Shown here piece by piece: positions 30,051 through 43,619 of a DNA stretch of 64,000 nucleotides (positions within the stretch are counted from its first letter, which is position 1; each line of letters opens with the position of its first letter). The DNA lies in contig NZ_CP129236.1 in assembly GCF_030413615.1 (NCBI RefSeq), positions 3,766,001 through 3,830,000 of the forward strand, read 5' to 3'. Source of the stretch: Planococcus shixiaomingii (GTDB lineage: Bacteria; Bacillota; Bacilli; Bacillales_A; Planococcaceae). A program made the position numbers and the translations under genes. Below the pieces are notes generated by a model. That model saw nothing but the letters and a program-made list of their open reading frames with translations. It was not told the origin of the DNA and ran no database searches.

Positions 30051-30566
30051 TTATTTATCAGAAAGCTTATTGTATTCCTCATTGATTTTGTCCATCGTTT
30101 GAGTTAGTTCTTCGCCCCAACGATCGTTAGCTACATTAAATACAACTGTGCCATCCGTATTTAACATTCCATATCCTCTATATGCTACATCCCCATTTTT
30201 CATGTTGAGCAGGTCAACAATTTTCAGGTCAGGATCTGAGATGAAAGGAAGAACTTCAGCGTATTCCTCTTTTAAAGCTGTATACAATTGAAGTTGTTGT
30301 TCAGGTGTATCCCCACTAATAATGTACGTATTAACATCCAACCCTTTTAAGACATCAATATTTTCATGCAACTGAACCAGTTGCTGCTGACAATGACTTC
30401 AGGTGTATGTGGTGATAAAGAAAAACAGAGTTGGTTTCTCTTGCGGGAAAGTTACTTCTTCTCCATTTTGATTTAATAATGTTGTGGGTTCGCTCATTTT
30501 ATCGGATCCGCAGCCAGAAATGACTACAACGGAAATCAGTAAAAGCAGAAGCATTTTGAATTTCAC
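30051..30566 (-). CDS. Thioredoxin-like lipoprotein with in-frame TGA (UxxC candidate selenoprotein or nonsense mutant)
   Basis: 171 codons from the GTG at 30566 (AGAGG 8 nt upstream) to the TAA at 30051, broken once by TGA at 30401-30399 (codon 56). Lipoprotein signal with lipobox ISGC (C19), then TTLLNQNGEEVTFPQEKPTL and FFFITTYT-[TGA]-SHCQQQLVQLHENID. The rest (NTYIISGDTPEQQLQLY, then GYGMLNTDGTVVF) is an AhpC/TSA-type thioredoxin fold. The TGA sits exactly where the first Cys of a CxxC active site belongs (xSHC59). All other codons are open and a SECIS-like hairpin follows. If it is not recoded, the product is a dead 55-residue lipopeptide. Confidence 0.75.
30368..30384 (-). promoter_or_regulatory. 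Candidate bacterial SECIS hairpin
   Basis: On the minus strand GCAACTG and CAGTTGC form a perfect 7-bp stem with loop GTT. There are 21 nt between the TGA and the loop, and the loop starts with G then T. This fits the known bacterial SECIS requirements (loop 16-37 nt after UGA, G among the first loop bases). Confidence 0.45.
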
Positions 30567-30698
30567 TTGCACTACCTCTTTTCTTTGTGGCCTATCAGCC
30601 CTTAATTTACTTGATTATACCATCTCCACTTCACAAAATGGCTCATACAGTTTCTCAAAAGAATTCACATCTTAAATTTGGATTCATTGAAAAATTGT

Positions 30699-32447: not shown

Positions 32448-32582
32448 CCCTTCTTTAGTCAATGCTCCAAGAATCCTTGCCGGTTGCATAATTCTCTGTT
32501 CCACGTTGGACTTCTTATAAGCGGTTTAGTTTGAAGTGGTCTTATAAAATTGCTAGAATATAAATTAATTAGATATCGAAAA

Positions 32583-32705
32583 TGTTTTCTAGGGTTCCGC
32601 AGCTTTGCTGGTCTGGTCCGAGAGAAAACTCACAGCTTTGCTGTGTCACGGAAGGATAAAAGCCTGGGAGAACTGTAAATGCAGTTTCTCTTGGGCTTTT
32701 TTTAT
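32583..32705 (+). promoter_or_regulatory. Guanidine-I (ykkC) riboswitch with attenuator
   Basis: The conserved core is visible: TAGGGTTCCG, CTGGTCCGAGAG, then TCACGGAAGGATAAAAGCC and GGGAGA. It is followed by an attenuator hairpin (about 32660-32698) and a T-run before the SMR pair. This is the ykkC class that senses guanidinium and allows read-through when ligand is bound. Confidence 0.93.
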
Positions 32706-32730
32706 TTTCTAGAAATAGGAGGAAGTTGAA

Positions 32731-33072
32731 ATGAATTCAAACTGGGTGAAAGTCATCATTGCGGCTGTTTTTGAGGTAGGCTGGGTCATCGGCTTGAAGC
32801 ATTCGGATAGTTTGTTGGATTGGGCTCTTACGGTTGTAGCGATTGTCATCAGTTTTTATGTGATGATCATGGCCGGGCGCGAATTGCCGGTCGGAACCGT
32901 CTATGCAGTCTTTGTCGGGCTTGGGACAGGGGGCACTGTTCTCGCAGAAATCGTCCTATTCAACGAGCCGTTCAGTGTTGCAAAATTGGTAATGGTCGGC
33001 ATTCTTCTAGCCGGGGTCATCGGGTTGAAATTAGTAACAAATGATACACCTTCTGAAGGGAGAGAAGCCTAA
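32731..33072 (+). CDS. ykkC: SMR guanidinium exporter subunit YkkC
   Basis: 113 residues, four helices. [12 protein letters not shown] has the essential membrane-embedded Glu of SMR proteins; [21 protein letters not shown] is the second family motif. Paired with YkkD as a heterodimer. The guanidine-I riboswitch upstream points to guanidinium export. TAGGAGG precedes the ATG; the stop overlaps the next start by 1 nt (TAATG). Confidence 0.93.
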
Positions 33073-33386
33073 TGGCATGGACGGCATTGGTTTTTGCAGG
33101 GATTTTTGAAATGTTCGGGGTCGCAATGATCAATAAACTGCACCAGGACCGCAACTGGCAATCGCTTACGCTGCTAATTTTAGGATTCGGAGCAAGCTTT
33201 GTTCTTTTGGCCTACGCCATGGAAACATTGGCCATGGGGACAGCCTATGCCGTCTGGACCGGAATCGGTGCATCCGGCGGCGCCATCATCGGCATGCTTT
33301 TTTACAATGAATCGAAAGACTGGAAGAGAATTCTCTTCATCGCGATGGTACTTGGTGCGGCAGTGGGATTGAAACTGGTTTCTTGA
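33072..33386 (+). CDS. ykkD: SMR guanidinium exporter subunit YkkD
   Basis: 104 residues, four helices: FAGIFEMFGVAMINKLH with the conserved Glu, LAMGTAYAVWTGIGASGGAIIGM and a C-terminal VLGAAVGLKLVS. Translationally coupled to ykkC. Opposite topology to YkkC is expected for the heterodimer. Confidence 0.93.
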   Translation: MAWTALVFAGIFEMFGVAMINKLHQDRNWQSLTLLILGFGASFVLLAYAMETLAMGTAYAVWTGIGASGGAIIGMLFYNESKDWKRILFIAMVLGAAVGLKLVS

Positions 33387-43425: not shown

Positions 43426-43619
43426 TTTTTACTCCTCCTTTTGGGAAGAAAACCAATTGTAAAAGCCCTTCTGTTCGTAATTTGGACAGAAGGGCAGAAA
43501 TTTAAGTAAAAGGTTTCCTCCGTCCCTGTCGCTTTAAGATCAAGGCAGATCTATTCAATTGAAACGTTCAATTTTTACCGGTGCAGTTCTGTTGGGATAC
43601 TGCCCTCACTTTCACTATA
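43426..43619 (-). promoter_or_regulatory. panB promoter and structured leader
   Basis: Extended -10 TGC-TATAGT (-10 at 43614-43619) predicts a leader of about 180 nt. Near its end GCCCTTCTGT (43465-43474) pairs with ACAGAAGGGC (43486-43495), followed by UUUU, like an attenuator. Further up, GCAGT can pair with ACTGC (about 43582-43602). A pan-motif RNA is known upstream of panB in Firmicutes; I cannot confirm it here. Confidence 0.5.

Follow-up and report, generated by a model that had tools for sequence, protein, structure and literature searches.

We identified in Planococcus shixiaomingii a gene that almost certainly encodes a selenoprotein, a redoxin lipoprotein in which an in-frame TGA would be read as selenocysteine (Sec). 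The gene lies in a stretch of 64,000 nucleotides (contig NZ_CP129236.1, positions 3,766,001 to 3,830,000), hereafter called the window. Translation of the minus-strand frame 30566-30051 gave 171 codons ending at a TAA, with the TGA at codon 56 as the sole internal stop, exactly as in the original prediction, which had been made from the bare sequence. The ribosome binding site, signal peptide and lipobox announced there were also seen by eye, and the stop was recovered by translation (Table 1). As these features suggest, the product is probably lipidated. Pfam AhpC-TSA (PF00578) matches the read-through protein over residues 29-142 with 44.5 bits (cut-off 26; profile tools write Sec as Cys in this scoring). 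The match spans the TGA, in agreement with the earlier view that both sides form one AhpC-TSA protein. AlphaFold2, given an alignment of 32 rows and Cys in place of residue 56, produced a model with a mean pLDDT of 90.3, and we read the order of its alpha/beta elements as redoxin-type. A bulged inverted repeat followed by a T run was seen by eye about 170 nt past the stop. A simple scan returned no terminator and two promoter-like sites, below the number in shuffled sequence.

Table 1 Features of the probable selenoprotein gene in the window
Feature	Position	Strand	Basis or remark
Probable selenoprotein gene, 171-residue redoxin (AhpC-TSA-fold) lipoprotein if TGA is Sec	30054..30566	-	stop TAA at 30053-30051
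Putative Sec-TGA, codon 56, first position of U-S-H-C	30399..30401	-	translation; same column TGA in 63/63 loci
Cys59 (TGT), partner of Sec in UxxC	30390..30392	-	invariant in family alignments; column of the peroxiredoxin peroxidatic Cys (three alignments)
Bacterial SECIS-type hairpin GCAACT-GGTTC-AGTTGC, apical loop 20 nt 3' of TGA	30368..30384	-	folding, covariation, published model
Ribosome binding site AGAGG, 8 nt 5' of GTG	30575..30579	-	by eye
GTG start	30566-30564	-	by eye
Predicted signal peptide to lipobox ISGC; lipid-accepting Cys19 at 30512-30510	30510..30566	-	by eye; Cys19 invariant in the 32-row alignment
Arg130, column of the peroxiredoxin active-site Arg	30177..30179	-	invariant in the 32-row alignment; three alignments

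The TGA is conserved throughout the family. Contigs were scanned with two TGA-free patterns, which matched 198 stretches, 63 of them encoding a relative; both patterns were built from TGA-type sequences, and remote Cys forms could escape them. In the alignment of these 63 homologous loci (33-85% identity), for which no TGA pattern was used, codon 56 is TGA in every case and no close relative carries TGT or TGC. The loci come from Planococcus, Mesobacillus, Cytobacillus, Aquibacillus, Salinibacillus, Halalkalibacter and others, and in the family alignments residues are conserved without break across the TGA. A separate draw of 398 genomes from the class gave nine matches above 120 bits in eight genomes, each with exactly one TGA; the draw and the 63 loci share genomes, and their counts are not independent. 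Within the genus, 4 of 36 genomes carry the gene, again with one TGA each. One genome (G335) holds two TGA copies, C1:3593735-3594238 and C1:2060284-2060742, with 272 and 122 bits. Copies in three records labelled Pseudomonas, Sporosarcina and Paenibacillus (L051, L069 and L079) are nested within a Cytobacillus clade and probably reflect mislabelled assemblies, or transfer. None of the loci found is a plasmid copy.

The part of the gene past the TGA bears the mark of a coding sequence. Four same-genus sequences make six pairs. Over the 112 downstream codons, dS was finite in four of these, with dN/dS values of 0.03, 0.06, 0.07 and 0.03. Synonymous divergence was saturated in the other two pairs and near saturation (1.46-1.66) in three of the four, making the ratios of those three rough. 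The single close pair differs downstream by eight synonymous changes and one other. Judged from these comparisons, the downstream half is under purifying selection, and the codons on both sides of the TGA evolve as protein.

The gene also keeps company with the Sec machinery. SelA served as the marker, since 5 of 14 control genomes gave a tRNA-Sec score over the cut-off of the model, making a tRNA-Sec match alone unspecific, against 1 of 14 for SelA. All 63 locus-bearing genomes (50/50 and 13/13) have SelA over cut-off in a survey that covered SelA only. In the class draw, SelA was found in 86 of 398 genomes, and the eight carriers, including the window's own genome, are all among these 86. 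By simple arithmetic, uncorrected for kinship, independence would produce this in about 4 cases in a million. The distribution of the gene is patchy: SelA is over cut-off in 19 of the 36 same-genus genomes, among them the four carriers. In addition, two genomes with remote TGA members (G046, 32% identity; G054, 28%) have both SelA and tRNA-Sec over cut-off.

One explanation offered at the outset was a nonsense mutation of TGT or TGC in a CxxC protein, leaving a pseudogene; a sequencing error would look the same. Such a change takes one base only, and database copies of the protein do show up as fragments. However, the TGA is shared by 63 of 63 other loci, the downstream sequence is without decay, and SelA accompanies the gene in all 63 carrier genomes and in all eight class-draw genomes with strong matches. 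The conserved TGA and the downstream selection led us to reject the mutation, and conservation of the TGA likewise makes an error unlikely; together these explanations are exceedingly improbable.

The original prediction had proposed looking for selA, selB, selD and tRNA-Sec in the same genome. All four are present in the genome (4.02 Mb), clustered together some 20 kb ahead of the first position of the window, and all exceed curated cut-offs: 62.6 bits for tRNA-Sec (cut-off 47), 375 bits for SelB (242), 560 for SelA (268) and 415 for SelD (125). The selD gene has itself one in-frame TGA, in the context STKGG-U-GCKIGP, followed 12 nt later by a hairpin GGTCC-TGA-GGACC. Adjoining selA is a second selenoprotein candidate (L009:2263-3054, minus strand) with a ResA-like domain, an in-frame TGA (ASW-U-R-C) and a TPR stretch; against its nearest model, WAxxUGC_long, it scores 120 bits, below the cut-off of 300. 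At least three TGA-containing genes of this genome (the window gene, selD and the ResA-like gene) are compatible with Sec. A family 4 glycosyltransferase gene (L009:6897-7892) separates tRNA-Sec from selD; its product has weak SenB similarity (279 bits to NF038229, cut-off 400). PhnD/PhnE/PhnC-like ABC transporter genes follow 3' of selD (L009:9021-11544). The first of them somewhat resembles a protein of putative selenate-binding function (173 bits, cut-off 250), and the transporter may possibly serve selenium uptake.

Fourteen nucleotides past the TGA, the window gene can form a hairpin (positions +15 to +31) with a 6-bp stem and the loop GGTTC. The first 48 nt have a fold energy of -12.8. 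The hairpin, its apical loop lying 20 nt past the TGA, fits the published model of the bacterial SECIS element, whose constraints, in the passages of PMC13188914 concerned, include an energy threshold of -7.5 kcal/mol. We compared 65 distinct sequences gathered with a pattern that matched 68 of 69 tried; only L028 was missed, whose gene is that of L119 as well. This pattern includes the TGA together with conserved residues, so the TGA count in this set is not evidence. All six stem pairs are kept in 63 sequences and five of six in the other two, and the loop reads NGTNN in 65 of 65. When nt 9-38 only are folded, 46 of the 65 reach -7.5 kcal/mol and 19 are weaker.

The stem also covaries. At its most variable pair, a synonymous switch on both sides took place about 17 times on the tree. 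The codons for Q62 and L66 combine as CAA-TTG in 38 of the 65 sequences, CAG-CTG in 25 and CAG-TTG, a G-U pair, in two; CAA-CTG never occurs. On a tree built without these codons, their minimum changes are 17 and 16, and 18 jointly. Among 11 independent pairs, 9-11 go in the same direction and none in the opposite one (median p 0.001). A compositional cause of this pairing was considered and set aside, as six control traits (GC3, Q60, C59, L63, position -2 and position 68) gave no significant link (Fisher p 0.073 to 1); C59 gave a weak trend, with 4.6 pairs one way versus 0.8 the other (p 0.073). Leu66 is encoded only by TTG or CTG, and residue 65 only by CAG or GAG, in all 65 sequences. Compared with synonymous recoding, codons +4 to +16 have a mean z of -2.26, with p 0.05 in 68% of 63 sequences. 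Nine other segments gave -1.49 (an overlapping one, from codon 0), -0.94 (+26 to +38) and -0.10 to -0.23 (the remaining seven). Segment +26 to +38 likewise folds somewhat more stably than its recoded versions, at p 0.05 in 29% of cases. The conserved TGA, the sel genes and this SECIS-like hairpin all speak for the Sec codon that had been proposed.

Two protein searches, covering 5.8 billion proteins, returned 97 distinct relatives and showed how databases record the family. As many as 79 have fewer than 125 residues and are without the upstream half that holds the TGA column. Entries sourced from NCBI are fragments some 98-113 residues long, named redoxin, peroxiredoxin family, AhpC/TSA or hypothetical. 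Bacillales gene finding currently splits the protein in two at the TGA. The 18 full-length relatives all have Trp at the TGA column, and none has Cys; from the protein records, we take this Trp to reflect the use of code 4 by a gene finder at the TGA.

These records bear on two other accounts of the TGA. If UGA were a true stop, the gene would yield a 55-residue lipopeptide and a separate protein re-initiated at TTG (30371) or a later start. The frame 30051-30371 is indeed open, and many annotated fragments start just past the TGA. But their predicted starts vary from record to record, the first start past the TGA in the window sits within the hairpin, and conservation runs continuously across the TGA. 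Re-initiation would also leave the SelA of every carrier genome unexplained. We rejected it on account of the continuous conservation and the inconsistent fragment starts, and regard it as very improbable. Equally small, in our estimate, is the chance that an ordinary tRNA (Trp or another near-cognate) reads through the UGA in place of Sec. The Trp of the 18 full-length copies would agree with such readthrough, whereas the SelA of 63 out of 63 genomes, the covarying SECIS-type hairpin and the nearest stop-free relative found, in which Cys and no Trp stands here, argue for Sec.

That relative, L118:1483-1959, is a lipoprotein with Cys at the Sec column (FFFINSFT-C-SAC-RYQLIEL), 34% identical to a remote Sec form, L117; the idea that the family has no Cys form whatever was thus wrong. 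Its genome (98% complete) is without a SelA match, and its best tRNA-Sec score, 44.5, is below the cut-off of 47. A protein search named it Caldalkalibacillus mannanilyticus and returned no further relatives at E 1e-6. Perhaps L118 arose by Sec-to-Cys replacement following loss of the machinery. In the fixed hairpin geometry its DNA keeps five of six stem pairs, with the loop TATAG (loop G lost) and a different predicted fold. This remnant is weak evidence, since L137, taken as an unrelated Cys protein for comparison, keeps four of six pairs in the same geometry. Among the CxxC relatives L137 is more distant, at 28% over 112 residues, and has Cys at the position 56 column. Inspection of 20 stop-free loci in the class showed one Cys form, L118; the remaining 19 encode AhpC, in which Thr or Ser occupies the column. 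By our own reading, the stop-free L137, L138 and L139 are CxxC Prx-like, Bcp-like and SCO-like, respectively, and by eye two weak stop-free matches of the same genus are SCO1-like (L030) and Bcp-like (L031). Further Cys forms may exist among the remaining weak stop-free matches of the class. Near members being all TGA and Cys forms only remote, this is a type of family that Cys-homologue filters could drop, and others may be dropped too.

Three alignments with peroxiredoxins of solved structure place Cys59 in the column of the peroxidatic Cys and Arg130 in that of a conserved Arg, which we take to be the active-site one; Sec56 is paired with the Thr/Ser of the TxxC motif. In the CxxC relatives L118 and L137, the Sec56 column is the first Cys. 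The description of codon 56 as the first Cys of a CxxC motif stands for these relatives, and the peroxiredoxin alignments refine it. The protein combines a PF00578 score over cut-off with a UxxC motif (U-S-H-C), the two marks of Prx-like thiol:disulfide oxidoreductases; the peroxiredoxin TxxC/U motif with its catalytic Thr is absent, Sec standing in the Thr/Ser column. Being Prx-like without that motif, the protein is better read as a UxxC thiol-disulfide oxidoreductase. The product is likely an extracytoplasmic UxxC oxidoreductase, and we lean slightly towards thiol-disulfide reductase as its main activity. The selenoprotein could instead act mainly as a lipoprotein peroxidase, with Cys59 peroxidatic, Sec56 resolving and Arg130 activating. 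The AhpC-TSA match would suit this activity, as would the placement of Cys59 and Arg130 in the AhpC/Prx columns for the peroxidatic Cys and for Arg. On the other hand, Sec replaces the Thr of the Prx TxxC motif, and position 56 is Cys in L118 and L137, as in thiol-disulfide oxidoreductases. We hold a peroxidase to be a serious, if less favored, possibility.

A hint at the substrate comes from the gene neighborhood. In a clade of alkaliphilic Bacillaceae and kin (L092-L106), ctaG and SCO1/SenC stand directly upstream on the same strand at 14 of 15 loci (L092-L103, L105, L106); at L104, the upstream sequence is too short to judge. Both families were named on L093 (CtaG 319.7 bits, cut-off 279; SCO1-SenC 109.1, cut-off 22.8) and assigned by similarity at the other 13. 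Between the sco stop and the likely selenoprotein start, the choice of which was judged, lie gaps of 16 to 125 nt. This order, limited to one clade and absent from the window, hints at copper assembly of cytochrome oxidase. In the window, the gene neighbors a divergent MarR regulator gene and acetyltransferase genes. Also on its strand, 2.6-5.7 kb off, are genes for what we would name CopA, CopZ and CsoR: a P-ATPase of metal type, a small protein of HMA type and a repressor that senses metal. Elsewhere in the window, a Guanidine-I riboswitch (84.5 bits; 32578-33386, plus strand) precedes a pair of small membrane proteins that by eye look like EmrE-type exporters, and a pan motif RNA (62 bits) lies at 43516-43606 on the minus strand.

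In Bradyrhizobium, TlpA reduces Sco and COX II, according to the passages of PMC6696091 on these proteins. Because TlpA there reduces Sco and the CuA site, a similar task can be proposed for the selenoprotein. We consider a link to Sco/CuA tentative and less likely than not. Somewhat more doubtful still is the wider proposal of an undescribed, almost Sec-only subfamily, with a single Cys form in a genome without SelA match, whose role would be to maintain the reduced state of Sco and of the cytochrome c oxidase CuA site. If true, the subfamily would be a selenium-dependent factor of aerobic respiration; in any case, the ctaG-sco-selenoprotein order offers a way to test whether selenium and cytochrome oxidase assembly are connected.

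Overall, we propose that SelB carrying Sec-tRNA-Sec would be held at the hairpin +15 to +31 past the UGA, which would then be decoded as selenocysteine without a stop. The product, a lipoprotein, would be anchored outside the membrane and would combine a peroxiredoxin-like thioredoxin fold with an active site of the form U-x-x-C. U56 and C59 would be expected to cycle between selenol-thiol and selenenylsulfide. The protein could reduce extracytoplasmic protein thiols, possibly those of Sco copper chaperones and of the CuA site of cytochrome c oxidase.

The kind of protein is already known. Prx-like UxxC/UxxU thiol:disulfide oxidoreductase selenoproteins (PF00578) are listed in tables of PMC13188914 and PMC9312934, and Prx-like 1 (pfam00578, UxxC) in the relevant part of PMC2398784. 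Prx-like selenoproteins also occur in PMC1794560, where the table of selenoprotein-rich organisms names Deltaproteobacteria and Clostridia; the 2006 table of the same paper gives three families and three proteins for Bacillales, whose selenoproteins have received little attention so far. The relevant count in PMC5029168, 32 Prx-like proteins in 28 organisms, could include some members of the present family, unnamed. The authors of deep-Sep state, in the passage concerned of PMC12013277, that their method may miss selenoproteins without Cys homologues, and that all known ones now seem to have them. Our search of the open-licence literature, which left subscription journals and supplementary tables outside its scope, found no published description of the lipoprotein family or its Bacillales members, and none of the NCBIfam models (June 2026) reaches its cut-off on the window protein. 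The Bacillales lipoprotein family is hence probably a variant, without a published description found, of the Prx-like UxxC selenoproteins. It shares with them the PF00578 fold and UxxC, likened by description only. The organisms named for them in the table cited above are Deltaproteobacteria and Clostridia, whereas the window protein is a predicted lipoprotein of Bacillales. The best NCBIfam match, the SelL-related NF040769, covers the same part of the fold, but the window protein scores 27.4 bits against its cut-off of 120, has a single Sec and is a predicted lipoprotein. AhpC and Bcp have the fold and the Cys59 and Arg130 columns in common with it; they differ in the Thr of TxxC where the window protein has Sec, and its AhpC score is 25 against a cut-off of 272. 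TlpA and ResA are, as predicted for the window protein, membrane-anchored redox proteins outside the cell. They belong to another subfamily, with Cys where the window protein has Sec, and the link of the window family to Sco comes from the gene neighborhood of one clade.
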